DNA of 64,000 nucleotides from Sphingopyxis sp. DBS4 (lineage in GTDB: Bacteria; Pseudomonadota; Alphaproteobacteria; Sphingomonadales; Sphingomonadaceae): the NCBI RefSeq assembly GCF_024628865.1, contig NZ_CP102386.1, positions 1-64,000 of the forward strand, read 5' to 3'. The notes beneath the pieces are model-generated. The model had not been told where the DNA came from, searched no databases, and saw nothing but the letters and a program-made list of their open reading frames with translations. Numbering within the stretch: the first letter of the stretch is position 1; every line of letters starts with the position of its first letter. Shown here in pieces: positions 16,801-52,395 of this stretch. Made by a program: the position numbers and the translations under genes.

Positions 16801-16806
16801 TACGTA
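16801..16806. promoter_or_regulatory. Candidate FixJ-type box (TACGTA) upstream of ppsA
   Basis: TACGTA in the context ATTACGTAAGGG, 96 bp before the ppsA start at 16704 and in the 316-bp interval between ppsA and the DUF2238 gene. One of seven such hexamers in the window, all in promoter-like positions. Confidence 0.45.
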
Positions 16807-17020
16807 AGGGTCCTATGCGCCGCAGAGCACAGAAGGACCGGGATTAAGGGGCGGCCGCGGTCCGATATGTTTTGCTTCGGCTTGTGGCGACCCAAGCCAT
16901 CCGATGGAGCCTGTTGGCCAGGGCGGCACCGGCGATTTTCGCGGGCTTTGCCGTCAAATGCTTGGTCAGCCCGGCTGCTTCAGGTGCTTCTCTCACGCCA
17001 TCGGCGGGACGGCGATCGTT

Positions 17021-17704
17021 TCAATCACCGAAGAGCTGGGGATTGCGAGCGATGAAGCGTTTGACCCAGTCGTCCACGTAGGAGGATCGGGCGCGACTGA
17101 GATAGCGCCAGCCAGCCACGCTGATCGCGAGCGCACCGATGGCGTTGACGATGAGATCCCACATTGTGTCGGTAAGTCCAGACGGGTCGCCGAGCATGGG
17201 CTTTTGCATAGTTAACCCGAATACCTGGTCCATCCCGAACTCGAATATCTCCCAAAGGGCACCGATCGCCTGGGAGAAACAGAATGCAAAGATTGCGAGA
17301 AACGAAGGCCTCATATGAAGGTCCACATGGCGGTCTTCATTGAGGATGTAGACTGTCATGAACCCTTGAAGGCCCAGGAGTAGTCCTGCCGTTGTATGAA
17401 GGACCAGATCCCACCACCAAAAACGTTCATAATAGTCGCGGACCTCGCCGAGGAAGAGAGTGGCAAAACCAAACAGGATGGCAAGTATCTGTACTTCAGG
17501 TGGTATCTGAACGGAAAAGCGGGCTTTCAGCACGACAGGCAACGCCATCGTCAGCATGATTCCAGCCACCAGGAAGACGTGGACCCATTGCTCCTCGACG
17601 ACCAGAAAAACAAGCTCCGCTGCCATCACGGATTGCAGGGCGACGAGGATGACGAGATGCGCGAACCTCGCTCGCTTCCCCTCAACTGGCTTATTGTCCT
17701 GCAT
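17021..17704 (-). CDS. DUF2238/YjdF-like inner-membrane protein
   Basis: From the likely start (MQDNKPVEGKR) the protein has 227 residues with about six hydrophobic helices. The segment RDYYERFWWWDLVLHTTAGLL followed by LGLQGF resembles the YjdF/DUF2238 family, and so do ALWEIFEFGMD and the C-terminal DTMWDLIVNAIGALA. Function is not known for the family. It starts 13 bp after the stop of a Usp gene, so the two are probably one operon. A longer frame reaches 17959, but that part runs through the Usp coding region and is unlikely to be translated. I see no clear ribosome binding site. Confidence 0.75.
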   Translation of the reverse strand: MQDNKPVEGKRARFAHLVILVALQSVMAAELVFLVVEEQWVHVFLVAGIMLTMALPVVLKARFSVQIPPEVQILAILFGFATLFLGEVRDYYERFWWWDLVLHTTAGLLLGLQGFMTVYILNEDRHVDLHMRPSFLAIFAFCFSQAIGALWEIFEFGMDQVFGLTMQKPMLGDPSGLTDTMWDLIVNAIGALAISVAGWRYLSRARSSYVDDWVKRFIARNPQLFGD

Positions 17705-17717
17705 CGACAGGCACGCT

Positions 17718-18587
17718 TCAGCGGATGATGTGGTGCGCCGGCTGGTTAGCCCGGCTGCTCTGCGGAACCAGCAGGACGTCGCATTCGAGGCAGCCGACAA
17801 GGGCGCGCGCCGTGCTACCGAGCATTGCTGTTGCCAGCGCCGAGCGCCCATGGGTTCCAATGACCGCGAGATCGACAACGTTCGTCTGCACATGGTCGCG
17901 CGCAACCTGGCAGACGTCACCATAATCCACGTTGACATCAATGAGTGCTTGCGTCCCATGAGGCAGGGCGGTCGCGTTCAGAAACGCGTCTAGCTCCATC
18001 GCGATTTCCGCCTGTTGCGCCGCGGCGGGGCCTTCGCGGCCGCGCAACGCCTCAAGCCGGACGTGATAGGCATGGACGAGCGTGATCGCCGCCGATGGGA
18101 ACAGGTCAACCGCGGTTATCAGCGCGGTTCGCGAGCATTCCGAAAAATCCGTGGCCGCCATCAGCTGCCGATATTCATCTTCCGCGCGGCCCTTGACGAT
18201 CAGGAGCGGCAAGCCTGCCCGTCGTGCCAGGCGTTCGACCGTGGTTCCAATGAGGAAATCTCCGAGCTCGTCCTTGCGGGAAATGCCTGTGACGATGAGA
18301 TCGACCGAGAATTCGGCAGCGACATCGAGAATGGTCGAAGTGACATCACCGAACGCGACCCTCGTGCAAATCGCGATATCACTGTTTTGCACTTCGCTCT
18401 CAAGCTTCGCCTGGGCCCGATCGATGGCTTCTTCGCGATCCCACGGTATCGTCGCATCGTCCTCGAGGACGTGAAGAAGCACTAACCTGGCGCCCCAGGC
18501 GCGTGCCAATAGCACCGCCCGGTCGCGGGAGCGGTCGCACCGGCCGGTAAAGTCGGTGGGCAGCAGGATCGTTTGCGGCGTGACCAT
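17718..18587 (-). CDS. Universal stress protein, two Usp domains
   Basis: The 289-residue protein starts MVTPQTILLPTDFTGRCDRS, a Usp beta-1 strand. Domain 1 ends LIVTGISRKDELGDFLIG and LLIVKGR. Domain 2 starts RQLMAATDFSECS and ends LAVIGTHGRSALATAMLGSTA and VLLVPQSS. The second copy keeps the full ATP-binding loop G-x2-G-x9-G-S/T (GTHGRSALATAMLGST), so it probably binds ATP. It leads an operon with the membrane protein at 17021-17704. About 70 bp upstream lies GGGACTTACAGC, a degenerate form of the TTACGTA motif found before other genes here. The start is chosen by alignment to Usp domains; no strong ribosome binding site is visible. Confidence 0.87.
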   Translation of the reverse strand: MVTPQTILLPTDFTGRCDRSRDRAVLLARAWGARLVLLHVLEDDATIPWDREEAIDRAQAKLESEVQNSDIAICTRVAFGDVTSTILDVAAEFSVDLIVTGISRKDELGDFLIGTTVERLARRAGLPLLIVKGRAEDEYRQLMAATDFSECSRTALITAVDLFPSAAITLVHAYHVRLEALRGREGPAAAQQAEIAMELDAFLNATALPHGTQALIDVNVDYGDVCQVARDHVQTNVVDLAVIGTHGRSALATAMLGSTARALVGCLECDVLLVPQSSRANQPAHHIIR

Positions 18588-18724
18588 AAAATTCAACTGA
18601 GGAGACAAGCAGATACCATGGCCGGGAAGGTACCAGCGGTCGTCGACGTCTGCAAAGGGACTTACAGCAGCTTGTCTCAACTTCAGATATGGGCTGATTC
18701 AATCGCAGCATGTGCGCGGCGATA

Positions 18725-18833: not shown

Positions 18834-18845
18834 AAGTAGGGTGCT

Positions 18846-19539: not shown

Positions 19540-19628
19540 GATTATGCCACAAATGCGATCTTGTTGTTCAAATGGCGTTTCGTGCCTATATTGCAACCAC
19601 GACGCACAATTCTCGTTTGGAGCCACCC

Positions 19629-20269: not shown

Positions 20270-20293
20270 TGTCTGTCATGCCTTGGAGGATTC

Positions 20294-20530: not shown

Positions 20531-20546
20531 TCCGCCGCGCCGTGGA

Positions 20547-23773: not shown

Positions 23774-23834
23774 ATTTTCTCAGCGACGCGGCAATCGGGA
23801 TAGACGGATCGAGCCTGGAGCGGATTAGGGAACC

Positions 23835-23840
23835 TACGTA
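23835..23840. promoter_or_regulatory. Candidate FixJ-type box (TACGTA) upstream of the YdcH-like gene
   Basis: TACGTA in AACCTACGTATCGG, 57 bp before the ATG at 23898. It overlaps GGAAC-N16-CGTG (from 23829), one base off the EcfG general-stress promoter GGAAC-N16/17-CGTT, so the site could serve either input. Confidence 0.5.
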
Positions 23841-23897: not shown

Positions 23898-24140
23898 ATG
23901 TCGAATACACCGCATACCTTGGGCGAAGAGTTTCCGGACCAGATGGACAAGATCCACGCGCTAAAAGTTTCAGACCCGATCTTTGCGCAGCTGCTCGCCA
24001 CTTATGATGAAGTAAACGACGAGATTCATGTGGCCGAAACCAACGTTCAGCCGACATCGCAGGATCGTGAGACCGAGCTGCGCAAGCGCCGCCTGTCGAT
24101 CAAGGACCAGATCGCCGAAGCGCTTTCACAGGCAGCCTGA
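23898..24140 (+). CDS. YdcH-like (DUF465) small protein
   Basis: The 80-residue protein begins MSNTPHTLGEEFPDQMDKIH and ends RKRRLSIKDQIAEALSQA. The pattern LGEEFP...I..L...D..F..L...Y...N..I and the C-terminal LRKRRLSIKDQI are those of YdcH/DUF465 proteins: short, helical and of unknown function. A TACGTA box lies 57 bp upstream. It precedes the cytochrome c gene at 24302 by 161 bp. Confidence 0.8.
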   Translation: MSNTPHTLGEEFPDQMDKIHALKVSDPIFAQLLATYDEVNDEIHVAETNVQPTSQDRETELRKRRLSIKDQIAEALSQAA

Positions 24141-24301
24141 TCGGTAGACAGCGGCCGGGCGCGCGGCGTCCGGCCGCCTTCCGCGCAAGCGTTGTGCGAA
24201 AATGAGGAGGGGGCGAGAGAATGATCCTACGCCCTCAACGCAGTTGAATAGCGGCAGAATTGGGTCTGTTGAGAAGTTCTTGCCATTCAGGGTCATCCAG
24301 C

Positions 24302-24682
24302 ATGTGGAAGAAATCCATTGCAATCGGCCTGTTGCTGACGGGAGCCTCTACCTTCGCGGCTGCCAGCGACGCAGGAGAAGTATCTCAAGGTCGCGAACTG
24401 GCGGAGCGGCGATGCGCGAGTTGTCACGCCATCGGCGAAACCAATGCGAGTCCCAACGTGCTCGCGCCACCGTTTCGCAATCTCTACAGGCAATATCCGG
24501 TCGACGCTTTGCGGCCTGCGTTCCTGAAGGGTCTTGAGGTCGGTCACCGTGATATGCCGCGCTTTGTCCTGACGCCGCAGGAGGTGACGGACATCATCGC
24601 GTTCCTTCATGAGCTCAACCCATGCCGCAAACCTTCGTCGGATGACACGGCCATGGCGCGGTGTTTCGCGCCCATGGAATGA
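24302..24682 (+). CDS. Periplasmic class I cytochrome c
   Basis: The 126-residue precursor begins MWKKSIAIGLLLTGASTFAA, a Sec signal peptide, and then has one heme site RRCASCHAIGE with an axial Met probably in HRDMPRF. It is a small monoheme cytochrome c, about 105 residues when mature. Two further cysteines near the C-terminus (NPCRKPSS and MARCFAP) are unusual and may form a disulfide. It could carry electrons to a terminal oxidase or sensor under low oxygen. It is convergent with the Usp gene at 24764. The start is set by the signal peptide. Confidence 0.87.
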   Translation: MWKKSIAIGLLLTGASTFAAASDAGEVSQGRELAERRCASCHAIGETNASPNVLAPPFRNLYRQYPVDALRPAFLKGLEVGHRDMPRFVLTPQEVTDIIAFLHELNPCRKPSSDDTAMARCFAPME

Positions 24683-26617: not shown

Positions 26618-27503
26618 TTAGTCTACCTTGCGCCTGGTGGGATCGGGGACGAGAAGGACGTCGCCGGGCACGGCATCGATGATCTTGCGCGCCGTGCTGC
26701 CGATCAGGGTCTCATAGACCATGCCGCCGCCATGAGACCCCACCACGTTGAGATGGCGTCGCGAATTCTCGGCATAGTCCCGCAGCAGCCCCTCGGGCAC
26801 GCCATGTTCGATCATGCGGCTGACCTTGCGCGCGGCGTCGGGCGCGATCCCGGCTTCGGCCAGGAACTTGTCGGCCGCGTCCTTGCCATATCCTTCGAAC
26901 TGCTTCTCGACCTCGGCGCGGCCAAGATAGCCGGCAAAAGGCACGTCATAGGCGTGAAAGAGCGAGATGCCTGCCTCCGGCCGTCTCAAGCGCAACGCGG
27001 GAGGATGCCGAGAAATCGGTGGTTACGAGCATGGTGCGATAGGGCTCGAAAGCACGGTCGCGAACGATCAGGACCGGAACGGGAGATTTGCGGATCAGCC
27101 GGTCAACGGTGTCGCCGAGGAACATGCGCGCGAGCAGTTCGTCGCGGGCGACGCCGGTAACGATCAGATCCGCATGGGACGCCCGGGCAGCACCCAGGAC
27201 CACCTCGGCCGGCGAGCCCGTCTCGACGTGAACCATGATGTCGACACCTGGATCCTCGCGGACCAGATCCCTGTAGATGCGGTCGCGCGCCTTTCGAACC
27301 GGATCGGGCGAGCGGCGCCAGGACGGTAGGTCGCGCAGGCTCCCGAACAGAGGAGAATCTTCAGGCGGAGCAAGCGCGTGAATGACGGTGAGTTCAGCCT
27401 GCCACGCCTTGGCGACCAGCAGGGCACGATCAAGCGCACGGTCGCAGCGATGACTGAGGTCGGTCGCCAAGGCGATGCGCCTGGGAAAAGTGCCTTGGGT
27501 CAT
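26618..27503 (-). pseudogene. Universal stress protein (tandem), frame-broken in the middle
   Basis: The N-terminal part (27503 to about 26990) reads RRIALATDLSHRCDRALDRA through LIVTGVARDELLARMFLGDT and VPVLIVRDR, then enters domain 2 (TMLVTTDFSASSRVALETA). Here the frame is lost. One frame over, the protein continues PEAGISLFHAYDVPFAGYLG and LNVVGSHGGGMVYETLIGST and VLLVPDPT to the stop at 26618. Comparison with related Usps suggests a gap of about 11-14 bases between ALETA and PEAGI, more than a simple run-length error, so this may be a genuine small deletion. If so, only domain 1 is made intact. It sits 11 bp after the P-type ATPase gene and 6 bp before the antiporter gene. Confidence 0.8.
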
Positions 27504-31699: not shown

Positions 31700-32521
31700 C
31701 TAGTGTGCAAAAAGCAACGGGAGCGATGCGCCACTAATCAGATCACGGGTGACGCCGCCAAGGATCATTTCGCGCAAGCGCGAATGCCCGTAGGCACCGA
31801 GGGCGAGCATGGCCGCGCCGCTCCGCCGGGCGGCCGTCACGAGCGCGTCGCCATCCGCCTCATCGCCACCGCGAACCGGTACCACCCTCGATACAAAGCC
31901 GTGCCGGGCAAGGTGGCGGGCTATGTCGGCGCCCGGCTCCGATCCATGCCCCTTCAAGGTTGGTTTTGCGTCGAGAACAAGGATATCAATGCTTGCTCCT
32001 GGAGACGCAAAGGTTGTCGCATCGCGAAGGGCATGCGTTGCTTCCCGTGTAGCATTCCAGCCGATCGCGAGATGTTCGATCGCTCTTGCCTTGTAGCCGC
32101 CTGGCAGGATCAGGACAGGGCGGCCCGATGAAAACAGAATACTCTCGGCGGTTTCGCGGCGGATCGGCGGGTGGTCATAGCTGTCGGCCGGCCCGATAAG
32201 AACAACGTCAGCATAGCGGGCATAGACCGCCGTCTTGACGAAGATCACCGATGGTTGGTCTGAAATCGTGCGTATCTCGACATTGGTGGAACGCGCGAGC
32301 GCGCCGATGCGCTCCTGCTTGGCCTCCACTGCTTCGGTGTAATCCTGCAGGAAGGCATAAGGCCGCACGATCGTGAAAGCGTAGTCAGCCGATGGAAGCG
32401 CCGAGAGAATGACCACGGACAGGCTGGCCTTGTGGAACTCCGCAAAGCCAAGAGCGTCTCGTAGGAACTGTTCGTCCTTGTCGCCGGTATCCACAACCGC
32501 GAGGACATCCTTGATGGCCAT
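31700..32521 (-). CDS. Universal stress protein (tandem, about 273 residues)
   Basis: The protein starts MAIKDVLAVVDTGDKDEQFL; GGAGGAAAGC directly before the ATG fixes this start over one four codons upstream. The first half ends ADVVLIGPADSYDHPPIRRE and VLILPGG; the second starts LAIGWNATREATHALRDATT and ends AMLALGAYGHSRLREMILGG then LPLLFAH. The second half is close to those of the Usps at 24764 and 36132 and keeps the G-x2-G-x9-G loop. A TACGTA box lies 62 bp upstream inside the end of the PRPP synthetase gene, suggesting an own promoter. Confidence 0.9.
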   Translation of the reverse strand: MAIKDVLAVVDTGDKDEQFLRDALGFAEFHKASLSVVILSALPSADYAFTIVRPYAFLQDYTEAVEAKQERIGALARSTNVEIRTISDQPSVIFVKTAVYARYADVVLIGPADSYDHPPIRRETAESILFSSGRPVLILPGGYKARAIEHLAIGWNATREATHALRDATTFASPGASIDILVLDAKPTLKGHGSEPGADIARHLARHGFVSRVVPVRGGDEADGDALVTAARRSGAAMLALGAYGHSRLREMILGGVTRDLISGASLPLLFAH

Positions 32522-36968: not shown

Positions 36969-37060
36969 GACCGCATCATGGTTCCGAATGATCGGCCTCG
37001 CACTCCGTAACATTACCATGAGCCGCCGAGACGCCGAACAGGTCGTGAATCATGCGAACA

Positions 37061-38080
37061 TCATTCCTGACGTTGATAATTTCCCGGCTCTCCGGGAAGG
37101 AGAACGGCCGCGCCGACCAGAGCCCCTGCGCGAAGGCGCTCAAGCGCAATGTTGGCGTCAGCAAGGCGGAAGGTTGTCGTGACCGTCCTGACCCGAGCCT
37201 CTTGTGCGACTTCGAAAAAGCTCGTCCCATCGTCGCGGGTGAGATTTGCAACCGAGGCGATCGTGCGTTCGCCCCAGAGATCGGCATAGGGGAATGCGGG
37301 GATGTCGCTCATGTGAATGCCGGCACAGATGACCCGCCCTCCCTTGCGGATAGCGCGAAGCGCGACAGGGACCAGCGCACCGACCGGCGCGAAGAGGATC
37401 GCGGCATCGAGTTCCACAGGGGCCGGCTCATCCGATGATCCGGCCCACGCGCAGCCAAGCGACCGCGCAAAGTCCTGGCCCTCGCGATCGTCCGCTTTGG
37501 TGAAGGCGTAAACCTCCCTGCCCTGCCAGATGGCGATCTGCGCGATGATATGCGCCGCGGCGCCAAAGCCGTAGAGTCCAAGACACCGCCCTTCGCCGGC
37601 GGCACGCAGCGAGCGCCAGCCGATCAGGCCAGCACACAGCAGCGGCGCCGCCTCTTCATCCGAATAGAGGTCGGGGATTCGGAAACAGAAATGAGCATCG
37701 GCGACAGCATGGGTCGCATAGCCGCCGTCGCGCGTGCATCCCGTAAAGCCGGGCATGTCGCACAGATTTTCACGGCCCGAGCGGCAATAGTCGCAACGCC
37801 CGCAGCTATGGCCCAACCATGGAACGCCGACCCGGTCGCCCGGCAGGAACCCGGTCACACCCTCCCCAATCGCGGCGACGATCCCGACAATCTCATGGCC
37901 CGGGATAATCGGAAGCTGGGCCGTTACTTCACCATCGACAATGTGAAGGTCAGTCCGGCACACACCGCAGGCGATCACCTTGATGAGCAGTTCCCCTGGT
38001 CCCGGATCTGGAATCGCGCGGGCGACAAGACGCAGCGGACCGCCCACCGCGCCGAGTTCCATCGCCCACATCTCCGTCAT
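37061..38080 (-). CDS. Zinc-dependent alcohol dehydrogenase (AdhP-like)
   Basis: From MTEMWAMELGAVGGPLRLVA the protein has 339 residues. Zinc ligands are in ACGVCRTDLH and IPGHEIVG; the structural site is CGRCDYCRSGRENLC; the cofactor fold has LGLYGFGAAAHIIAQIA. CTRDGGYATHAV with the ALGAxVH-type LCAGLIGWRSL is typical of AdhP-like alcohol dehydrogenases. The last part LADANIALERLRAGALVGAAVL is the usual C-terminus. A longer frame to 38158 lacks support. It is not a close duplicate of the one at 35055, so the two likely act on different substrates. Confidence 0.9.
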   Translation of the reverse strand: MTEMWAMELGAVGGPLRLVARAIPDPGPGELLIKVIACGVCRTDLHIVDGEVTAQLPIIPGHEIVGIVAAIGEGVTGFLPGDRVGVPWLGHSCGRCDYCRSGRENLCDMPGFTGCTRDGGYATHAVADAHFCFRIPDLYSDEEAAPLLCAGLIGWRSLRAAGEGRCLGLYGFGAAAHIIAQIAIWQGREVYAFTKADDREGQDFARSLGCAWAGSSDEPAPVELDAAILFAPVGALVPVALRAIRKGGRVICAGIHMSDIPAFPYADLWGERTIASVANLTRDDGTSFFEVAQEARVRTVTTTFRLADANIALERLRAGALVGAAVLLPGEPGNYQRQE

Positions 38081-38117
38081 CGAAAGACGTCCTTTCGGGG
38101 ATATAATTATCAGCCCA

Positions 38118-38633
38118 TCATTGAAGCTGCTTCGAGACAATGACGAGGGTTGCGTCATCCGGATAGGCCTTCACCGTGAAGCCCGAGTCCCGTTCCACTT
38201 CAATCGCCTTCTGGTTCAGCCGGCTTTCGACTGCCTCCAGCGTGCGGCAGCCACGCGTCTTCGCATAGTCTGCGGCGAGGTTGAGAAGCGTCCAGCCTAC
38301 GCCTTGATGCTTATAGTCCGCACGGACCGCGATCGCCACCTCGGCGCGTTCTCCCGATGGTTCGATTGCGATCATGGCCGATCCGACCAGCGTCCCGTTG
38401 TCCGCGAAGGCCAGGAAATCCTCAGTCTGCTTGTGGTCGACATCGATCATGGACGCGATCTGGTCGTCAGAGACCTTGAGCATTGCTGTGAGGAAACGGA
38501 AGCGGAGATCTTCCGGGGTAACCCTGTCGAAAAAATCTCGGAGCAAAGGCCCATCGTCGCGCGTAACCGGCCTTAAGGACAGGCTGAGACCCGATCGGGT
38601 CACCACCTCGGTGAAGGACGCTATATCGGACAT
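38118..38633 (-). CDS. GNAT-family N-acetyltransferase
   Basis: The 171-residue protein has SLRPVTRDDGPLLRDFFDRV at the start, the substrate and acetyl-CoA strands VGSAMIAIEPSGERAEVAIA, and the pyrophosphate loop RADYKHQGVGWTLLNLAADY (Q/RxxGxG/A). The EDLRFRF motif early on is typical of acetyltransferases joined to acyl-CoA synthetase or acting on proteins (Pat-like), so it may regulate metabolic enzymes by lysine acetylation; this is inference. It lies 37 bp before the alcohol dehydrogenase at 37061-38080, probably in one operon. Confidence 0.87.
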   Translation of the reverse strand: MSDIASFTEVVTRSGLSLSLRPVTRDDGPLLRDFFDRVTPEDLRFRFLTAMLKVSDDQIASMIDVDHKQTEDFLAFADNGTLVGSAMIAIEPSGERAEVAIAVRADYKHQGVGWTLLNLAADYAKTRGCRTLEAVESRLNQKAIEVERDSGFTVKAYPDDATLVIVSKQLQ

Positions 38634-38638: not shown

Positions 38639-38928
38639 CACCTCATCTGCGATATTGGCCATGTCGAGAGGACGGTAAGTTGCCGGCACCACGGCGCGCG
38701 CCTTTTCACACGATCCCAAGGCGCCGTCAGCCGGAATGATGACTCCTCCGTCGACGATGCGGCAGGGAGGATAGCTGACCGTTGACCTCAGCGAGCCTAG
38801 GAAGTGTACGTAACCGAAATGGAAGTTCGCTGTTTGTGGTAAAGGGACAACGGTGATGCCCATCGACCGGGGCCCATCTTGCACCACTGCTCGGCTGCGC
38901 CCATCACGGGCACAGCCTGATCTGTCAT
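38639..38928. other. 290-bp intergenic region upstream of the GNAT gene
   Basis: A minus-strand frame from 38932 overlaps the CBS stop but shows no family and poor protein character. The region holds one TACGTA box and an inferred promoter for the GNAT-ADH-Usp-ADH-phosphorylase series. Confidence 0.4.
38807..38812. promoter_or_regulatory. Candidate FixJ-type box (TACGTA) upstream of the GNAT operon
   Basis: TACGTA in GTGTACGTAACCG, in non-coding DNA 173 bp before the GNAT start at 38633. GTACGTAA matches seven of eight positions of the FixJ consensus GTAMGTAG. Confidence 0.5.
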
Positions 38929-39757: not shown

Positions 39758-39899
39758 CGTTGGATCCCTTCCATGATGATATCCGCAAGACGAGCCTGTC
39801 ACCGGGCCGCAACCATCGGTTGCAATCATGTGAAGGTTCTTTCCCGCGGAAACACAGGTCCTGTACCCTGATTGGCGCCATGAAGAGAATGGGGATGTA

Positions 39900-39905
39900 T
39901 ACGTA
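39900..39905. promoter_or_regulatory. Candidate FixJ-type box (TACGTA) between phasin and PHA synthase
   Basis: TACGTA in TGTATACGTATCGG, 67 bp before the PHA synthase start at 39973 and 142 bp before the phasin start at 39757. The CTACGTATCGG/TATACGTATCGG similarity to the site at 23835 extends to TACGTATCGG. Confidence 0.55.
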
Positions 39906-39972: not shown

Positions 39973-41730
39973 ATGATGAATAACATAGAGCATGTTGCCA
40001 CCGACCCTCTCGACGGTATCAGCCAGACCCTCGATCGCGCGGCGGCTGCTGGCATCGCGCACCTGACGCACGGGCTGTCGCCGGTGACGATGATGCTCGC
40101 GGCAACGGACTGGATGCTGCACCTCGCCAGCGCGCCCGGCAAGCAATTGCAATTGGGCGCCAAGGCCTTGAGAAAATGCTGGCGTTTGTCCGATTATATC
40201 GGACGAAGCCTCAGCAATCCCGATGCCACCCCCGCGATCGAGCCTCTGCCGCAGGATCGCCGGTTCATCGATCCGGCATGGAAGGAGCCGCCCTTCAACC
40301 TGATCGTCCAGGCTTTCTTGCTGAACCAGCAATGGTGGCACGCCGCGACCACCGGGATCGGCGGGGTAAGCAGGCACCATGAGGAGATCGTCGAGTTCGC
40401 GGCCCGCCAAATCCTCGATGTCTTTGCGCCGGCCAATTTCCTTGCGACCAATCCGGTCCTGCAACGCAAGATCGTCGAAACCGGCGGGCGGTGCGTCGTC
40501 GATGGCTTCCATAACCTCATGGAGGACATGCAGCGCCTGGCGCGCGGCGAGCCGCCCGTGGGCGCGGAGGCCTTTCCCGTCGGCGAGAAGGTGGCGACGG
40601 CCAGGGGGAAGGTTGTCTATCGCAACGCGCTCATCGAACTCATCCAGTATGAGCCCACGACGGAGACCGTGCGCCCCGAACCGGTCCTGATCGTCCCTGC
40701 CTGGATCATGAAATATTATATCCTCGACCTCTCGCCGGAAAATTCACTCGTACGCTGGCTGACGGATCAGGGCTTCACCGTGTTCATGATCTCCTGGCAC
40801 AACCCCGGCAAACAGGACCGCGGCCTCGATCTTGAGGACTATCGCCAGCTGGGTCCGATGGCCGCGCTGGACGTCATCGACACGATCGTGGGCGGTCAGA
40901 AGGTGCATGCCGCCGGTTACTGCCTTGGCGGCACGCTGTTGTCGATCGCCGCGGCGGCGATGGCGCGAGACGGTGACGAGCGGCTCGCCAGCGTCACCCT
41001 GCTGGCGGCCCAAACCGAGTTCAGCGAGCCGGGTGAGCTTGGTCTGTTTATCGACGAAGCCCAGCTCAACGTGCTCGACAACATGATGTGGGGCCGCGGC
41101 TATCTCGACGGCGCGCAGATGGGCGGTGCATTCCAGATTCTGCGGTCGAACGATCTCGTCTGGTCGCGCGTGCTCGGCACCTATCTCATGGGCGAACGCG
41201 AGCCGATGAGCGATCTCATGGCCTGGAACACGGACGCAACGCGCATGCCCTATCGCATGCACAGCGAATATCTGAACCGCCTGTTCCTGAACGACGATCT
41301 GGCCGAAGGAAAATACAAGGTCGATGACCGCACGATCACGCTGTCGGCGATCGATACGCCGATGTTCGTGGTCGGCACCGAGCGCGACCATGTCGCCCCG
41401 TGGCGTTCGGTCCACAAGATCCACCTGCTGACCAGTGCGGAGATCACCTTCGTGCTCACCAGCGGCGGGCATAATGCGGGGATCGTTTCCGAACCGGGTC
41501 ACAAGGGCCGCTCCTATCGGGTAATGACGCGCGAGGCGTGCGGACCATCCTATGACCCCGAGGCCTGGCTGGAACGGGCGGAAGGCAAGGCGGGGTCCTG
41601 GTGGACCGAGTGGGGCGCATGGCTCACGGCGCGCTCGGGAGCGCTGAGCGCGCCTCCGGCCATGGGCGCGCCCGACAAGGGCTTCACGCCCCTTGGCGAC
41701 GCGCCCGGCCGATATGTCCTGGAGAAATAA
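39973..41730 (+). CDS. phaC: Polyhydroxyalkanoate synthase (class I-like)
   Basis: The 585-residue protein has the PhaC N-terminal domain (RRFIDPAWKEPPFNLIVQAF) and the alpha/beta-hydrolase core. The lipase box is AAGYCLGGTLLSIA with the catalytic Cys at about residue 317; the Asp is in VGTERDHVAPWRSV and the His in LTSGGHNAGIVSEP. YLMGEREPMSDLMAWNTDAT is also typical. It polymerises 3-hydroxyacyl-CoA into storage granules. ATGs at 39973 and 39976 are both possible. It is followed after 4 bp by the MaoC-phosphotransacetylase fusion, and a TACGTA box lies 67 bp upstream. Confidence 0.93.
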   Translation: MMNNIEHVATDPLDGISQTLDRAAAAGIAHLTHGLSPVTMMLAATDWMLHLASAPGKQLQLGAKALRKCWRLSDYIGRSLSNPDATPAIEPLPQDRRFIDPAWKEPPFNLIVQAFLLNQQWWHAATTGIGGVSRHHEEIVEFAARQILDVFAPANFLATNPVLQRKIVETGGRCVVDGFHNLMEDMQRLARGEPPVGAEAFPVGEKVATARGKVVYRNALIELIQYEPTTETVRPEPVLIVPAWIMKYYILDLSPENSLVRWLTDQGFTVFMISWHNPGKQDRGLDLEDYRQLGPMAALDVIDTIVGGQKVHAAGYCLGGTLLSIAAAAMARDGDERLASVTLLAAQTEFSEPGELGLFIDEAQLNVLDNMMWGRGYLDGAQMGGAFQILRSNDLVWSRVLGTYLMGEREPMSDLMAWNTDATRMPYRMHSEYLNRLFLNDDLAEGKYKVDDRTITLSAIDTPMFVVGTERDHVAPWRSVHKIHLLTSAEITFVLTSGGHNAGIVSEPGHKGRSYRVMTREACGPSYDPEAWLERAEGKAGSWWTEWGAWLTARSGALSAPPAMGAPDKGFTPLGDAPGRYVLEK

Positions 41731-41734
41731 GCGA

Positions 41735-43156
41735 ATGACCGACGAGACGTTTATCGAGAACCGGACGTTCGACGAGATCCGGATCGGCGACACGGCAAGC
41801 GTGTCCCGCACCCTGTCGGAGAAGGACATCCAACTATTCGCGCTCGTCTCCGGTGATGTGAACCCTGCGCATCTCGATGCCGACTTTGCGCAGACGGATT
41901 TCTTTCAGCGGATCATCGCCCATGGCATGTGGGGCGGGGGGCTCATCTCGGCGGTGCTCGGGACCGAGCTGCCCGGACCGGGAACGATCTATCTCGGGCA
42001 ATCGCTGCGCTTCACGCGCCCGGTGGACATAGGCGACGTCATCACGGCATCCGTCACGGTGACGGAAAAGAAGCCCGAGGGCTGCATCCTCATCCTCGAC
42101 TGCCGCTGTGTGAACCAGAACGGCGAGACCGTTATCGCCGGGCAGGCCGAGGTCCGCGCGCCAAGCGAAAAAGTGCGCCGCCCGCGCCTGACGCTCCCCG
42201 ACGTTCGTGTCGCCACGCATGATGGATACCGGCGTTTGATCGAGCAGACGCAGGATGGAGAACCCATCGCCACCGCAGTCGCGCACCCGTGCAGCGCGGC
42301 GGCGCTCGCGGCGGCGGTGGATGCCGCGGAAACACGGCTGATCGTACCGATTCTCGTCGGCCCGGAAAAACGGATCCGCGCCGCTGCCGAGGAAGCGGGG
42401 AAGGACATTTCCGGCTACCGCCTTGTGCCTGCCGATCACAGCCACGATGCGGCCGCGAAGGCCGTGGCGCTCGTGCGCAGCGGCGAGGCGAAACTGCTGA
42501 TGAAAGGCTCGCTGCATACCGACGAGCTTATGGGCGCAGTCATATCGGCCGCAACTGGCCTCAGGACCGAGCGGCGCATCAGCCATGCCTATGTGATGGA
42601 TGTGCCGGGACATCCGACGCCGCTCATCATCACCGATGCGGCGATCAACATAGCGCCGTCTCTCAAGGAAAAAGCCGACATCATTCGCAACGCGATCGAC
42701 CTCGCCCATGTCATAGGCATCGCGGCGCCCAAGGTCGCCATTCTTTCCGCTGTCGAAACGGTGAACCCCGACCTGCCCTCGACGCTCGATGCGGCAGCCC
42801 TGTGCAAGATGGCCGACCGGGGCCAGATCAGCGGCGGCATTCTCGACGGCCCCCTCGCCTTCGACAATGCGATCAGCGAGGCGGCGGCGCGGGAAAAGGG
42901 CATCGTCTCGCCAGTCGCCGGAAAGGCGGAAATCCTGGTCGTTCCCAACCTGGAGGCTGGCAATATGCTCGCCAAGCAGCTTACCTTTCTGGGCGGCGCC
43001 GACGCCGCAGGCGTGGTCCTTGGCGCGCGGGTGCCCATCATCCTCACCAGCCGCGCGGACAGCGAGCGGACACGCCTAGCATCCTGCGCCATTGCGGCGC
43101 TGCTTGCGCGCGCCGCCCCGAAAGCCGCGCCCGGGCTCCCGCAGGCTTCCGTATGA
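41735..43156 (+). CDS. MaoC hydratase-phosphate acyltransferase fusion
   Basis: The 473-residue protein joins two domains. Residues 1-145 are a MaoC/hot-dog hydratase (FALVSGDVNPAHLDADFAQT, FFQRIIAHGMWGGGLISAVL), with the catalytic Asp/His pair in DxNPxHxD-like GDVNPAHLD. Residues about 160-465 are a phosphotransacetylase/phosphotransbutyrylase (AETRLIVPILVGPEKRI, LLMKGSLHTDELMGAVI, GGILDGPLAFDNAIS, VGLNxLV-like GNMLAKQLTFLGGADAAGVV). It converts acyl-CoA plus phosphate to acyl-phosphate. The order phaC, this gene, ackA with a 4-bp gap and an ATGA overlap implies joint use of CoA thioesters for storage or ATP. Whether acetyl- or butyryl-CoA is preferred is open. Confidence 0.9.
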   Translation: MTDETFIENRTFDEIRIGDTASVSRTLSEKDIQLFALVSGDVNPAHLDADFAQTDFFQRIIAHGMWGGGLISAVLGTELPGPGTIYLGQSLRFTRPVDIGDVITASVTVTEKKPEGCILILDCRCVNQNGETVIAGQAEVRAPSEKVRRPRLTLPDVRVATHDGYRRLIEQTQDGEPIATAVAHPCSAAALAAAVDAAETRLIVPILVGPEKRIRAAAEEAGKDISGYRLVPADHSHDAAAKAVALVRSGEAKLLMKGSLHTDELMGAVISAATGLRTERRISHAYVMDVPGHPTPLIITDAAINIAPSLKEKADIIRNAIDLAHVIGIAAPKVAILSAVETVNPDLPSTLDAAALCKMADRGQISGGILDGPLAFDNAISEAAAREKGIVSPVAGKAEILVVPNLEAGNMLAKQLTFLGGADAAGVVLGARVPIILTSRADSERTRLASCAIAALLARAAPKAAPGLPQASV

Positions 43157-44340
43157 AGGCGATCGTCAGCCTCAATTCGGGTTCGTCGAGCATCAAGTTT
43201 GCGTTCTTCACCCTGGACGGCGCGGGCCATCCGGAGCGTTCGGCAGGCGGCAAGATCGAGAAGATCGGGATCGCGCCGTCACTGGTCGCGCGCCGGGTCG
43301 ACGGCACTGTCCTTGTCGAGCGCACATGGGAACAGGGAGCTGACCTGACGCATGCCGAACTCCTCAAGGATCTGTTCGACTGGGCCATAGAGCATCTCGA
43401 AGGCCGGGAAGTGATCGCGATCGGGCACCGCGTCGTGCATGGCGGGATGCGTTTCGCCGCGCCGCGCCGCGTCGACGCCGCCCTCCTCACCGAGCTTGAC
43501 GCGCTCTGCCCGCTCGCGCCGCTCCATCAGCCGCACAATCTGGCCGCGATCCGCGCCATTGCGGCCCTGGCGCGGGATCTTCCCCAGATCGCCTGCTTCG
43601 ATACCGCCTTTCACCACGACAAGCCCGAGGTCGCCGCGCGGCTCGCGCTCCCCCGCGCGCTGCATGAGCAGGGAATCCGTCGCTATGGATTTCATGGGCT
43701 GTCCTACGAATATATCGCCGGGCAGTTGCGAACCATCGACGGGGAGCTTGCCGGCGGGCGGGTGATCGCGGCGCATCTCGGCAATGGCGCGAGCCTGTGC
43801 GCAATGCGGGACGGCAAGAGTGTCGACACCACCATGGGCTTCACGGCGCTCGATGGCCTGATGATGGGCACGCGTTGCGGAACGCTCGACCCCGGAGTCG
43901 TGCTCCACCTCCAGACGCAAATGGGCCTGAGCCCGGCCGGGATAGACGATCTGCTTTATCGCAAATCCGGCCTGCTTGGCGTGTCAGGCATATCCAGCGA
44001 CATGCGGATACTGACGGCTGACCCGAGCAGGCAATCCCAGGAAGCCGTCGAACTTTTCATCTGGCGGGCTGTCCGTGAATTCGGCGCGCTCACCGCATCG
44101 CTCGGCGGCGTTGACGGCATCGTCTTCACGGCCGGGATCGGCGAGAACCACGCGGAAATCCGCCGGCGTATTTGCGAGCGGTTCGACTGGCTGGGACTGT
44201 CGATCGACGACGATGCGAATGCCGCCAATGCCCTTTGCATCTCGGGCGGGGACAGCCGCGTCAAAGTCCTCGTCATTCCGACCGACGAGGAGCGGATGAT
44301 TGCCGATCATACGCTTGCCGTTCTGCGGTCGGGATCATGA
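43153..44340 (+). CDS. ackA: Acetate kinase
   Basis: The 395-residue protein MKAIVSLNSGSSSIKFAFFT has the acetokinase signatures: LNSGSSSIKF (signature 1), GHRVVHGG (substrate pocket), FDTAFHHDKP with the catalytic Asp, RRYGFHGLSYEYIA, AHLGNGASLCAMRDGKSVDTT-type phosphate loop, and TAGIGENHAEIRRRI. It makes ATP from acyl-phosphate. Its start overlaps the stop of the fusion gene (ATGA), a translational coupling that matches the pathway order acyl-CoA to acyl-phosphate to acid plus ATP. This is substrate-level phosphorylation suited to oxygen shortage. Confidence 0.95.
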   Translation: MKAIVSLNSGSSSIKFAFFTLDGAGHPERSAGGKIEKIGIAPSLVARRVDGTVLVERTWEQGADLTHAELLKDLFDWAIEHLEGREVIAIGHRVVHGGMRFAAPRRVDAALLTELDALCPLAPLHQPHNLAAIRAIAALARDLPQIACFDTAFHHDKPEVAARLALPRALHEQGIRRYGFHGLSYEYIAGQLRTIDGELAGGRVIAAHLGNGASLCAMRDGKSVDTTMGFTALDGLMMGTRCGTLDPGVVLHLQTQMGLSPAGIDDLLYRKSGLLGVSGISSDMRILTADPSRQSQEAVELFIWRAVREFGALTASLGGVDGIVFTAGIGENHAEIRRRICERFDWLGLSIDDDANAANALCISGGDSRVKVLVIPTDEERMIADHTLAVLRSGS

Positions 44341-46795: not shown

Positions 46796-47212
46796 TCAGG
46801 AATGGGCGATTGCCTCACCCGCACCTGTCAATCGAGCAACGGTCTCGCCGAGCACATGTTCGCGAAAGGGCTTCTCGAGGACCTGGTTGAACCCATGCGC
46901 CAGGGCCCGCTCGGTGAGATCAGGAGATGGGAAAGCTGTGATGAGCACCGCTGGGCCGGACCAACCACTCTCTCTGAGACGGCAGAGCACGTCGATCCCG
47001 TCGGTTTCGTCCAGCCTGTAATCCGCGATAAAGCAGCAGGCATCGCGGGCGGTCGGATCGGCAAGGAGCGCAGCACCGGCCGCATAGGCCCGGACATCGA
47101 AGCCTCGGGCTCGAAACAGAAGCTGTAACGATCGGCGAACCCCGGCATCATCCTCCACCAGGAGAAGCCGTGGACGCTCCTGCATCTGGGATGCAATTCT
47201 CTCACTTGTCAT
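46796..47212 (-). CDS. Single-domain response regulator
   Basis: The 138-residue protein is a receiver only: RPRLLLVEDDAGVRRSLQLL (acidic pair), CCFIADYRLDETDGIDVLCR (phospho-Asp in ADYRL), GPAVLITAFPSPDLTERALA (Thr) and NQVLEKPFREHVLGETV (Lys-Pro). There is no output domain. Such FixJ-N-like proteins may take phosphoryl groups from the FixL-type kinase or compete with FixJ. A TACGTA box lies 67 bp upstream, so the gene may be under FixJ control and form a feedback loop. Confidence 0.88.
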   Translation of the reverse strand: MTSERIASQMQERPRLLLVEDDAGVRRSLQLLFRARGFDVRAYAAGAALLADPTARDACCFIADYRLDETDGIDVLCRLRESGWSGPAVLITAFPSPDLTERALAHGFNQVLEKPFREHVLGETVARLTGAGEAIAHS

Positions 47213-47279
47213 GACACACCATCAAATCCAGCGACCATGCTGATTGATTGGGAATGTCAGGAAATCGGCGACGGGTCGC

Positions 47280-47285
47280 TACGTA
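47280..47285. promoter_or_regulatory. Candidate FixJ-type box (TACGTA) upstream of the receiver gene
   Basis: TACGTA in GCTACGTAAGTGTCC, between the fixJ stop (47299) and the receiver gene start at 47212 (67 bp away). The minus-strand reading is CACTTACGTAGCG, containing TTACGTAG. Confidence 0.55.
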
Positions 47286-47298
47286 AGTGTCCGAAGCC

Positions 47299-47913
47299 TT
47301 AGCCGGTTACGCCCGCGGAAAATGCGATGCGAAGAGCCTCCGACAGGCTGCGGACGCCGAGCTTTGTCATCAGATTGGCACGATGAACTTCTACCGTACG
47401 CGGCGAAATGCCGAGGTCATAGGCGATGGATTTGTTCGGCAAGCCCTGGGCAAGTCCCTTGAGGACGTCCTGCTCACGTGCGGAGAGACCCGCGATGAGG
47501 ATGGTCGCATCGGCCGCCCGGCTCGCCCTGCCTTCGGCATCGGCAAGGCGCTCAAAGGCGGTTTCGATGGCCGTGATCAATACCGCCTTCTCGAACGGCT
47601 TCTCCAGGAAATCGACCGCCCCGGCCTTCATCGCCTGAACGGCGATTGTAACGTCCCCATGGCCGGTCAGGACAACAACAGGCATGGATATACCACGCGC
47701 GTTCAGTTCCTGCTGGACTGCCAGGCCATCCATCTCGGGCATGCGGACATCAAGCAGGATACAACCCTGCTCGGCCTGCTTGAGATTTTTAAGAAATTCC
47801 ACGCCGGAAACCCACGGCGTCACCGAAAAACCCGATTTCTTCAGCATGAAACCAGTCGAACGGCGGATCGAATCCTCGTCATCGACTATGTGAACAACAC
47901 GTTTTTCATCCAT
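47299..47913 (-). CDS. fixJ: FixJ-type two-component response regulator
   Basis: The 204-residue protein has a receiver ([20 protein letters not shown]; phospho-Asp in [47 protein letters not shown]) and a LuxR/FixJ helix-turn-helix ([57 protein letters not shown]). The whole layout, including the TGHGDVxxAVxAMKxGAxDFLEKPF stretch, is that of FixJ. Its start overlaps the fixL end by eight bases, so sensor and regulator are made together. FixJ-phosphate activates genes for low-oxygen life in rhizobia and Caulobacter. Confidence 0.93.
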
Positions 47914-49969
47914 CCAGCTTCTCCGCCTCCGTCCTTATCAAGGTAAAATGGAACTGGGTACCGCCCCCTTCCGCTGGCTCCATCCAGATGCGGCCGCCAT
48001 TGGCTTCGACGATGGTTCGGCAAATGGAGAGGCCAAGACCCATGCCTTCCGTTTTGGTGCTCACGAATGCCTTGAAGAGCTGGGCTGCCACCTCGGGCGC
48101 CACACCAGGCCCCGTGTCAGCCACCGTCACGCGAACAAATCCTGGCTGATCGGGCGCCGTCCGGATCGTGAGAACGCGGCGGGTGGCCGTACTCATCGCG
48201 TCCACCGCGTTGCGGATAAGGTTGACCAGAACCTGCTGGATCTGGATCTTGTCGACCAGCACGCTCGCTGCCTCGTGATCGATATCGATCCGGGTTCCGA
48301 TCGACTTGTCACCCGCGCCCAGCAACCCGAAAGCGGCAGATTCGTTGATCAGATCAGGCAGGCTCTCGACCGTCTTTTCAACTTCGCCGCGCGCCACGAA
48401 ATCACGTAGCCGCCTGACGATTTGGCCCGCGCGCATGGCCTCCCCTGCGGCCTCCTGCAACGCCTCGACAATTTCCGGCAGCTCGTCGGGATCCGGCTCG
48501 GCCAGCAAATCGCGAACGGCTTCGACATAGTTTGCAACCGCTGTGATCGGCTGGTTGAGTTCGTGGGCCAGGGTGGATGCCATGGTTCCCATCGCGCTGA
48601 CGCGGGCGACGTGTATAAGCTCGGATTGAAGTTCCTCGAGCCGCTCCTGCGTTCGATGGCGGTCCGTAAGGTCGCGGATGAAGCCCGTGAAGACACGCTG
48701 GCCGTCGCCGGTTGCCTCGCCCACTGACAATTCCATCGGAAATGTGGTCCCGTCCTTGCGCATTGCGAAGACCACCCGGCCGATACCGATGATCCGGCGC
48801 TCGCCCGTCGTGAGATAGCGTTCGAGATAGCCGTCATGACGTTCGCGATAGGGCGAGGGCATGAGCATGCTCACATTGGCGCCCAGGACTTCGGCCTGCG
48901 CGTACCCGAACAGGCGCTCGGCCGCAGCACTGAAGGACAGCATTGTCCCCCGCTCGTCGATAACGATCATCGCATCGGGAACGGTCGACAGGATTGAGCG
49001 AAGATGCGCCTCGCTGTTGCGGAGCGAGCTTTCGGCGGCGCGCTGGTCGGTAATGTCGCGGACGACGATCGCAAAGCTGCGAACCGTCCCGTCCGGATTC
49101 TTCAACGCCGTGATCGCAACATGGGCGAGAAATTCGCTGCCATCCTTGCGGACGCGCCAGTCGTCCATCTCTATCTTGCCGCGTGCAACCGCTTCGGCCC
49201 GGATCAACGCCGGTTTGCCGGCGGCAACGGCGTCATCAGGATAGAAGAGATCGGCCGGTCTCCCGATCATTTCCGCGGCGGTCCAGCCCTTCAGTCGCTG
49301 GGCGCCTTCGTTCCAGATCGTGACGTTTCCGTCGGGATCGAGCATGTAGATGGCGTAATCCTGCGCGCCGTCGATCAGGAGGTTAAGCTCTTCGGCGAGG
49401 ATGACCGCGCTTTCGGCCAGTTCGCGCGTGACCGTGACGGTGCGATGGTGATTGCGCCACAGGAGGAACATCGCGAAGAGAAAGATCGCGACGGCTATCT
49501 GCTGGCTCGTTGCGGTGGGCCAGCCGTCGACGATGACAAGCGTTGCAAGGGTTACGAGCGAGAGGCTCGAGATCACGAACAGGTCGGGCCTGAGCGCGAC
49601 CAGCACCATGCCCGCCACACCCAGGGCCACGAAGTAATGGACGCGTTCATCGACGTGCACAGCGAGCTGTTCGCGGGTCACGAAGGTGATAATCGCGACC
49701 GCGAGACCCGCGAGAACCGCCGTGATGATCTGGGAACGGATCGAAGGACTGGCGAGCAGCCTGGCAGCGGCCAATGCCGGCGCAAAGGCGCCCTTCCGTT
49801 CCGATGGCCGGTTGGTATCCGGAATTGCTTTGCTCCCTCGCCGTGGTGAAGGGAGCCGCACCGCGCGGACACACTCCCCTTTTGTTCCGTTTTCTATCGA
49901 TTGAACCCGGATTGAGCCATCGAAAGTTGCGAGGTCAGGCCTCTGGGAATTGCGACGGATTACCTTCAT
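47906..49969 (-). CDS. fixL: FixL-type heme-PAS oxygen-sensing histidine kinase
   Basis: The protein (about 687 residues from 49969) has four membrane helices (about 78-172), a PAS domain (about 196-310), a second PAS domain (about 318-440), and a kinase core with phosphoacceptor [42 protein letters not shown] and [15 protein letters not shown]. The second PAS matches Fix[21 protein letters not shown] holds the heme-ligand His (about residue 378, codon 48836-48838), and [15 protein letters not shown] holds the Arg that contacts bound O2. When O2 leaves the heme, the kinase turns on. Start uncertain: the frame runs to 50191 with other ATGs at 50008 and 50056, none with a clear binding site. 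Confidence 0.92.
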
Positions 49970-50223
49970 CTCTGCCGCAGCGCGCGACGCTCGCCCTCTG
50001 CCGGTCATTGGAACAAATACGGATTCCCATGACGGCGCCTGGAAGATAGACCCCATTTCGTGTTTCGTCGACGAACCGACACGATTGATAGGCAGGGGGA
50101 ATAAATGGCGCCGCGTTGGTTCATTCGGCACGTTTGGAAAGGGGTGGGTGCAAGTGTGCAGGCTGTTCCGTGTGCCCACACCGTCCACCATTCGATCAAT
50201 CTGGATCCCGACAAGGCAACTCC

Positions 50224-51486: not shown

Positions 51487-51488
51487 AA

Positions 51489-52346
51489 TTAGACACTGGC
51501 GGGGTATTCCTCCGGTGGCACACCCGGTACGAAATCAGGCTGGCTTGGGATGATTTCAGGGGGATTGGGCATAGGCGTTTCCCGGGGCTCTGGAGGTGCG
51601 GGAGTCTCTGGCGGGGCCAATGGCCGAATAATGTCAGGCTTGGGTTCGACGGGCTGAGCATTCATATGGGCCTTGTTCCTTCTTGGCTGTCCACGCTGCA
51701 GTCTTCCGCGGCGTTCATGTAGCCGTGCTTGCCTCCCTGCGGGCGCTAGCGATCCCGCCTGACGAGTAAGGCCAACATTGAGGACAAGCGGTATCATGAG
51801 CACGGCAACCGTGCCCCGGCCGACTGCGCTACGAAGTCGAAATCTGGCGTGACAGGATCGTGCGAAATGGCGAATTTGACCGAGGCCAGTGTCATGCGCG
51901 CCATCCAGAACGGCTGTGCGTTCCGGCGGGCTCATCCCTTTTCCCGTGTCTGCAACGGTGACCCATAACCGACGCCCCACGCGCTTGGCTCGCACAATGA
52001 TGCGCCCCCCGATTGCAAGAGCAGTGCGCGCATTGTCGACAAGCTCGACGAGTGCAGCATCAAGGACCGACGCATCAAACCTGACCAGAGCCTTCTCCGC
52101 TGAGACTTTAATTTCGATCTGCGCCTCATCGCTGCTTCGAGCGTCAAGACGCAATTGCAGCGTCCGGAGATGCTGGTTGAGGTCGAACATGCGAACCATC
52201 GGATTGATTTCCCTGGAAGGCAGAACGGTCGTCAAAGTGACTCCGCAGCGCGCCGACTCGGCGATCCCGAATGAAGCGCCGAAGCCGCAGATATTCTCCC
52301 GCCCCACAATCTGCGCGCGCCATCGAGCATACGCTCCTTTATCCAT
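51489..52346 (-). CDS. Orphan histidine-kinase-type ATPase with proline-rich tail
   Basis: The 285-residue protein contains a HATPase domain: LDAALVELVDNARTALAIGG (N box), TVADTGKGMSPPERTAV (G1 box), GLGQIRHFARSCHARFRLRS, VGRGTVAVL (G2-type). Upstream, FDLNQHLRTLQLRLDA fits the end of a kinase dimerisation region but no His box is present, so phosphotransfer to itself is unlikely. The last 58 residues (from Met at 51665) are a Pro/Glu-rich repeat (PPETPAPPEPRETPMPNPPE); an ATG with AAGGAACAAGG before it could start this as a separate small protein in the same frame. TACGTA lies 43 bp upstream of the start. Confidence 0.72.
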   Translation of the reverse strand: MDKGAYARWRAQIVGRENICGFGASFGIAESARCGVTLTTVLPSREINPMVRMFDLNQHLRTLQLRLDARSSDEAQIEIKVSAEKALVRFDASVLDAALVELVDNARTALAIGGRIIVRAKRVGRRLWVTVADTGKGMSPPERTAVLDGAHDTGLGQIRHFARSCHARFRLRSAVGRGTVAVLMIPLVLNVGLTRQAGSLAPAGRQARLHERRGRLQRGQPRRNKAHMNAQPVEPKPDIIRPLAPPETPAPPEPRETPMPNPPEIIPSQPDFVPGVPPEEYPASV

Positions 52347-52389
52347 ATAATTCTGTCACTGCGGGCAGGTTCACGTGAATTGGGAAAGT

Positions 52390-52395
52390 TACGTA
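52390..52395. promoter_or_regulatory. Candidate FixJ-type box (TACGTA) between the HATPase and hsp20 genes
   Basis: TACGTA in AAGTTACGTAGCGG, 43 bp before the HATPase start at 52346 and 201 bp before hsp20 at 52597, in a 250-bp divergent intergenic region without a gene. TTACGTAGCG also occurs at 47280 (minus strand). Confidence 0.5.

Follow-up and report, generated by a model that had tools for sequence, protein, structure and literature searches.

Oxygen-responsive FixLJ-FixK cascades are known from rhizobia and Caulobacter (S. meliloti, B. diazoefficiens and C. crescentus), and in the mycobacteria a regulator of the NarL/FixJ family under a haem kinase, DosR/DevR, turns on universal stress protein (Usp) genes at low oxygen as part of the dormancy regulon. 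The subject here is a 64,000-nucleotide stretch of Sphingopyxis sp. DBS4 DNA (bases 1–64000 of the 227-kb contig NZ_CP102386.1, called C3; this whole stretch is "the window" below), which encodes a fixLJ pair and contains seven copies of the hexamer TACGTA that are probably the centres of FixJ binding sites. The system is like the FixLJ-FixK cascade in its haem-type PAS FixL, in the DNA-reading region of FixJ, in a TAMGTA...TTCCC box and in a single-domain receiver by fixJ that is comparable with FixT. It differs from that cascade in two ways: a scan of 10 of the 12 CRP-type hits turned up no CRP/FNR-type gene accompanied by a comparable box, and on a single contig such boxes immediately precede many stress and fermentation genes. 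It differs from DosR/DevR in the box and in the type of kinase.

Caulobacter FixT is a single-domain receiver that inhibits FixL (PMC7078487). The protein encoded beside fixJ here is also a single receiver domain that adjoins fixLJ and lies downstream of a FixJ-type box, with inhibition only a candidate function; it differs in having three cysteines, FixT having a four-cysteine motif that is said, in the accessible text of PMC7078487, to be unique to it. FixL-FixJ copies on plasmids of Sphingobium hydrophobicum C1T have been suggested to be horizontally acquired (PMC6783567); the likeness is the presence of FixLJ on sphingomonad plasmids, and the difference is that the available extracts of that paper describe no binding site or regulon. 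A survey that took in the Sphingomonadales lists FixLJ, in the portion available, only for Caulobacterales and Rhizobiales (PMC4999443), and no FixJ sites are described in the excerpts at hand of two papers on Fnr and anoxia in Sphingopyxis (PMC7713065, PMC6472365). Among the matches listed from the open-licence PubMed Central (PMC) literature we found no FixJ box or direct FixJ regulon in sphingomonads; FixLJ, FixJ boxes and plasmid-borne sphingomonad FixLJ are already known, and this regulon was not found reported in that literature.

We hold it to be about 87% probable that the TACGTA sites are the centres of FixJ binding sites, through which a plasmid-encoded FixLJ would directly control a low-oxygen survival regulon carried on the plasmid; no FixK relay was seen. 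What the sequences show is the boxes themselves, where they lie relative to promoters, their conservation, their association with fixJ and their resemblance to the FixJ target promoters of S. meliloti. A FixJ box and regulon had been proposed in the initial annotation of the window, and that proposal is supported by the box beside fixJ, by the location of such boxes outside genes on other plasmids, by the recovery of fixK and nifA on S. meliloti pSymA and by the match of the FixJ helix-turn-helix (HTH) region; the boxes remain predicted. TACGTA occurs at 16801, 23835, 32584, 38807, 39900, 47280 and 52390 and nowhere else in the window, exactly as first listed, and the recomputed distances to the next ATG (96, 57, 62, 173, 67, 67 and 43 bp) are identical to the earlier ones. 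The accompanying statement was that none lies inside an open gene body; five of the seven are outside every open reading frame (ORF) called by a simple gene caller, and 32584 and 38807 are inside ORFs. The former occupies the last codons of the prs ORF (32570–33490), as had been noted, and the latter is in an ORF of 103 amino acids (aa) with a very weak coding signal that is taken to be spurious. About seven copies had been thought expected by chance; mononucleotide composition does give 7.8, but dinucleotide-preserving shuffles of the window give a mean of 1.16, and none of 100 such shuffles reaches seven. Of the 64 palindromic hexamers, none is as over-represented in the window as TACGTA (7 versus 1.2 to 1.3 expected), and the 51 copies in the whole genome (4.9 Mb, five contigs; 50 of the 51 were inspected, one being absent from the listing) predict 0.67 for the window (P 6e-6). 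The window is thus 1.3% of the genome with 14% of its TACGTA, and all of C3 is 4.6% of the genome; the first observation is confirmed and is stronger than reported. C3 is a probable plasmid, since the named relatives closest to it are plasmids. We set aside a SnaBI-type restriction site as an explanation, as it predicts no flanking pattern, and an Rfam search gave no match.

TACGTA forms the middle of a longer box, approximately GGTCGCTACGTAnnnTTCCCAAT, whose core also occurs as TAAGTA (hence TAMGTA). Two classes of FixJ site selected in vitro (SELEX), GTAGTTTCCC and GTAMGTAG, are quoted in the accessible part of PMC4999443, where the motif is called unsettled. One box here holds both TACGTA and a TTCCC half and so resembles both classes, not only GTAMGTAG, and by their sequences the two classes look like parts of one box. 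Compared with the GTAMGTAG-type box first suggested, the predicted box is longer, its core may be TAAGTA, and it resembles the second SELEX class as well. The TAMGTA core with a TTCCC-type half is clear at five of the seven window sites and looser at 32584 and 38807, and the extended similarities reported earlier are real (TACGTATCGG at 23835 and 39900, TTACGTAGCG at 52389 on the plus strand and 47277 on the minus strand). Construction of a motif from orthologous promoters had been put forward as a check, and a matrix trained on the flanks only of 15 distinct fixJ-adjacent boxes of other species, when used to score 50 TACGTA of the genome, places C3 sites at ranks 1 to 8, namely five window sites and three at 218–219 kb. 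The 47280 site is the counterpart of the training sites, and without it the six other window sites still differ from 40 others (Mann-Whitney P 0.005). An orientation-free motif of 56 distinct sites has 6.9 bits of flank information versus 3.0 for 35 control sites (subsampled regulon sets have a minimum of 6.4). Its sites, chance sites included, come from the window (seven), L044 (three), seven plasmid loci and 17 genus loci, and omit locus L206 (near-identical to the window) and C3 193380 and 197107; the controls are 35 distinct sites of contigs C1 and C2, and neither set includes the C4 site or one of the C2 sites. The pattern TAMGTANNNTTCCCAAT, read off the 56-site motif, is matched perfectly at three places in the genome, each of them on C3, and five of its seven matches at up to 2 mismatches are there; weaker near-cognate sites also occur within the window. 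As genome-wide detectors the strict long patterns GGAMNNNTACGTARCGACC and TAMGTANNNTTCCCAAT were dropped, being too rigid because the half-site spacing varies, and only their best matches were used; among the matches listed, GGAMNNNTACGTARCGACC at 2 mismatches showed no excess over control in relatives.

A search of 99 genomes, this one included, found a FixJ match at E up to 1e-40 in 33, and 27 loci in 22 genomes (again counting our own) form a close fixJ group at E up to 1e-76. TACGTA lies within about 45 bp past the fixJ stop codon in 22 of these 27 loci of the genus, with shared flanks such as GGGACCAATACGTAGCGACC, although this count overstates independence since L140 to L144 are near-identical, and one of the 22 (G012 C13) was judged by coordinates only. 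Two further close loci carry TACCTA at that place. Among more distant FixJ-like loci, TACGTA follows fixJ in none of the nine examined, of 21 matches. Of the 22 genomes with a close fixJ, 19 contain the pattern TACGTARCGAC, versus 17 of the other 77. The gene after the box varies, being receiver-only, small and HTH-like, or CRP/FNR-like in G054 (the last two by eye), so that fixLJ is the constant neighbour of the box. In the chromosomal fixJ loci L137, L138 and L140–L144 the box is followed by a gene for a small protein (about 110 aa) with, by eye, a lone GerE-type HTH, possibly a receiver-less partner or competitor of FixJ. The phaC-pta cluster was abandoned as a conservation probe, as its neighbourhood is not kept and none of the phaC-pta regions of other genomes has a close fixJ copy.

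Named plasmids give a second sample. A tblastn search of PLSDB with FixJ returned 291 records, 49 of them with at least 60% identity, and eight regions of about 40 kb, from 30 listed, were examined: those of Sphingomonas sp. MM-1 pISP1, an S. panacis plasmid, N. pentaromativorans pLA4, Caulobacter sp. FWC26 p1, Sphingobium sp. SYK-6 pSLPG, R. dicambivorans p1, Q. citrea plas2 and N. resinovorum pSA2. The PLSDB mobility type is conjugative for seven of the eight, and seven of the eight regions have the box between fixJ and the receiver gene. Together they contain 27 TACGTA versus 5.9 expected, and all 27 are outside annotated genes, against only 16.8% of the bases; the corresponding shares of the controls are 1379/5899 for anagram hexamers and 1033/7062 for other palindromes. 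The same holds for 21 of 21 sites in the five regions where unannotated DNA is scarcest (11.7 to 14.7%) and for 25 of 25 when pISP1 is left out. Most of the sites (21/27) sit 56 to 112 bp from an annotated start, and the genes after them include a phaC homologue, mgtA, a Usp gene, phbB, receiver genes, GNAT and metal ATPases. Of 41 near-cognate matches that lack TACGTA and have a score over 8, 30 are non-coding (at least two of the 41 overlap a TACGTA box). On Caulobacter FWC26 p1 (L209:18145, 28764) and Sphingobium SYK-6 pSLPG (L210:11640, 30784, 31424) boxes lie before a heavy-metal P-type ATPase gene and before small genes that adjoin copper-binding genes, an observation that would link control of the FixJ type to resistance to metals.

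A matrix made from such boxes, with no rhizobial sequence in its training, was run over 140 kb of Sinorhizobium meliloti pSymA, whose stretches at 400–500 kb were picked because we took them to hold nifA. The first-ranked match is a TACGTA box (L224:14964) that lies 169 bp upstream of a Usp gene transcribed divergently from fixL, the second is 99 bp upstream of nifA, and the fourth, TAAGTAATTTCCCTTA, is 81 bp upstream of a FixK-like gene. When the flanks were shuffled and the core kept, fixK and nifA never reached the top 4 together in 300 matrices. This last sequence, TAAGTAATTTCCCTTA, is quoted as the FixJ-binding site of the fixK promoter in PMC4999443, which in its available text describes fixK as FixJ's only known conserved target, and R. 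palustris FixJ binds, in gel shifts, a fixK promoter holding GTACGTAG (PMC13327599). To judge from the Usp-associated box, Usp control by FixJ may exist in S. meliloti too.

That a fixLJ pair is encoded in the window, as the initial annotation had it, is borne out by the domain content of two minus-strand ORFs that overlap by 8 bp. The fixJ gene (47299–47913) encodes a receiver plus a LuxR/GerE HTH, and fixL (47906–50191, with a start at about 49471 by the pISP1 annotation) a PAS-PAS-HisKA-HATPase protein with a haem-type PAS. Alignment of this PAS to FixL chain 1dp6 shows HD.Y..RY and IIGIGR conserved and the haem-contact residues kept (chain 1y28 has Ala at the Arg of IIGIGR); a haem-binding PAS is marked by the proximal His and by this Arg. 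The HisKA and HATPase domains match FixL, and the best NCBIfam model is FixL at 543 bits, which is under its 850-bit cut-off. The best solved relative of FixJ is a FixJ, 5xso, which we take to be that of B. japonicum. Over some 23–25 residues that include the DNA-reading helix, the FixJ HTH is nearly identical to that of chain 1x3u, named in PMC4999443 as S. meliloti FixJ. The gene after fixJ (46796–47212, minus strand) encodes a single receiver domain with three cysteines, has a box upstream, and by analogy is a candidate for a FixT-like brake.

The seven predicted FixJ-type boxes are all given here on the minus strand. The first, GGACCCTTACGTAATGACC (16795–16813), is 96 bp upstream of ppsA, a phosphoenolpyruvate synthase gene (14320–16704, minus strand; PPDK_N and PEP-utilizers domains), and is kept in the relative G022 (L187 5612). 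The second, TACGTAGGTTCCCTAAT (23824–23840), is 57 bp upstream of a YdcH-like (DUF465) gene (23898–24140, plus strand) that is followed by a c-type cytochrome gene (24260–24682); it has 12/16 identities to the S. meliloti fixK site, and its G022 counterpart is TACTTA on the plus strand, i.e. TAAGTA on the minus strand. The box at 32573–32589, which has the weakest flanks of the seven, is in the last codons of prs and 62 bp upstream of a Usp gene (31700–32521, minus strand), and its TACGTA is kept in G022 (L189) and G021 (L191). TACGTA is likewise kept in both relatives in TACGTACACTTCCTAGG (38796–38812), 173 bp upstream of a minus-strand run (36132–38633) of GNAT (38118–38633), alcohol dehydrogenase (37061–38158) and Usp (36132–37019) genes, and in TACGTATACATCCCCAT (39889–39905), 67 bp upstream of phaC, the first of a plus-strand group (39973–44340) that continues with an enoyl-CoA hydratase/phosphate acetyltransferase fusion and acetate kinase; the S. 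panacis plasmid phaC homologue has TACGTA 59 bp upstream. Box GGACACTTACGTAGCGACC (47274–47292) is between fixJ and the receiver gene. Box TACGTAACTTTCCCAAT (52379–52395) has 0 mismatches to TAMGTANNNTTCCCAAT, and is between a HATPase_c ORF (51489–52346, minus strand) and an hsp20-like gene (52546–52998, plus strand; under the curated cut-offs, with Hsp20 annotated at the same place on pISP1); its TACGTA at 52390 is kept in G022 and pISP1. Possible weaker boxes are TCCGTATTTGTTCCAAT (50007–50023, minus strand) in the fixL-mgtC region and TCCGTAGATTCCCGAAT (52443–52459, plus strand) upstream of hsp20. Further boxes on C3 are at 189934 (a perfect TAMGTANNNTTCCCAAT match 78 bp upstream of a 90-aa ORF), 218097 and 218911. 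Overall, TACGTA is kept in the syntenic relative G022 at 8 of 10 C3 sites (the seven of the window and three at 218–219 kb; those at 193380 and 197107 are outside the ten), the exceptions being the ydcH site and 219360. G022 is a near relative (FixJ 98% and Usp 90% identical), so site conservation there is by itself weak evidence.

The window also encodes several Usp genes, alcohol dehydrogenases and HU. Overlapping ORFs in different frames at 26946–27503 and 26618–26995, both Usp-like by eye, are possibly one frameshifted Usp gene. Integrase ORFs (window 104–1048 and 52999–54078; L044 11450–12529) flank the regulon region and share sequence by eye, which suggests copies of one insertion element; 52999–54078, the only one of the three run against Pfam, matches rve.

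Several observations weigh against our interpretation. Five of the 27 close fixJ loci have no TACGTA after fixJ, and away from fixJ the hexamer is near chance in 80 phaC-pta regions of other genomes (36 versus 27.5) and present in 1 of 35 phaC upstream stretches there. Within the window, 32584 and 38807 rank low with the fixJ-trained matrix, among the chromosomal sites. Genome-wide at 3 mismatches, TAMGTANNNTTCCCAAT has 100 matches versus 118 for its reversed control (17 of the 100 on C3) and GGAMNNNTACGTARCGACC has 65 versus 131. The FixJ protein scores 245.6 bits, below the NCBIfam FixJ cut-off of 255, FixJ being the best model by far. Among the plasmids, pISP1 is nearly identical to the window and its two sites are not independent, and the PLSDB gene tables are incomplete. 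On pSymA, the first-ranked site is within the longest possible fixL frame (L224 13382–15109) and is upstream only if fixL starts later, the third-ranked site is inside ORFs, and taken singly the shuffled matrices bring fixK into the top 4 in 8/300 cases, nifA in 14/300 and the Usp site to first place in 38/300.

The rival explanation that survives best, and which we consider unlikely, is that another LuxR/NarL-type regulator (for example the small HTH-only protein), or several related ones, read the boxes, FixJ being a mere neighbour. Several chromosomal relatives do encode a small protein, GerE-type-HTH-like by eye, just after the box, but the window and the eight plasmid regions have a receiver-only gene in its place, and a matrix of this kind also recovers, in S. 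meliloti, the promoters of fixK and nifA, which are FixJ targets according to the literature. It is very improbable that an FNR/FixK-type regulator gives anaerobic control here and that TACGTA is incidental. This genome has 12 CRP-type domain hits, and an Fnr box has been described, in the accessible part of PMC7713065, at a Sphingopyxis granuli uspA gene; yet no site within one mismatch of the FNR-type box TTGATNNNNATCAA occurs in the 300 bp upstream of eight genes, where two sites with two mismatches were found, at gnat and at phaC (the latter spanning the start). Nor was a fixK/fnr gene under a comparable box found around 10 of the 12 CRP-type hits, scanned about 1.5 kb to each side, where the best box scores 9.4; the comparison scores of 12.5 to 25.6 are those of the seven window boxes and C3 218911, themselves in the training set. 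With no comparable box at the CRP-type genes and no FNR-type box upstream, control appears to be direct.

Equally hard to credit is that the sites are those of a LiuR- or FadR-like regulator of fatty-acid or leucine catabolism with the box TTTACGTAAA. Such boxes do precede an EtfB-like and an acyl-CoA dehydrogenase-like gene on the chromosome (L002 and L012), but TTTACGTAAA is not the sequence of any of the seven window sites, whose flanks conform to a different pattern. The chromosomal TTTACGTAAA sites (L002, L012, L018, L021 and L026, two of them before these genes) look like a separate fatty-acid or leucine-catabolism regulon, the EtfB-like, acyl-CoA dehydrogenase-like, LiuR and FadR names being presumed from the protein starts. 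Two other chromosomal loci, L007 and L008 (C1 1044667 and 1062197, about 17.5 kb apart), are alike around a TACGTA that lies in an ORF before a GMC-oxidoreductase-like gene, which suggests a repeat or recent duplication. Clustering by chance or base composition is what the mononucleotide prediction would allow, and it can be dismissed in view of the shuffles, the genome rate, the shared flanks, the retention of TACGTA in G022 at 8/10 C3 sites and the 27/27 sites outside annotated genes on other plasmids.

If FixJ does read these boxes, then at low oxygen haem-FixL would become active and FixJ would be phosphorylated, and phosphorylated FixJ would bind the TAMGTAnnnTTCCC-type boxes 43 to 173 bp upstream of start codons and activate. 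The putative targets would serve fermentation and storage (ppsA, alcohol dehydrogenase, phaC-pta-ack), stress (Usp, Hsp20) and feedback (the FixT-like receiver protein). Binding by FixJ, activation and oxygen dependence in this organism are what we infer from the boxes and their setting. We lean slightly towards the further view, drawn from sequence comparison, that conjugative sphingomonad plasmids and one Caulobacter plasmid carry a self-contained module of haem-FixL, FixJ, a FixT-like brake and direct targets, with no FixK and few or no chromosomal host targets; control of Usp genes is perhaps an old FixJ role shared with S. meliloti.

The boxes provide a well-populated FixJ motif that unites features of both SELEX classes and that, in S. 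meliloti, picks out nifA, fixK and a Usp gene as well. From them it would seem that FixLJ travels on plasmids together with genes that it controls directly. The spread and rewiring of an oxygen switch can thereby be put to a direct test, and, if this is true, hosts would gain a complete low-oxygen survival programme by one transfer.

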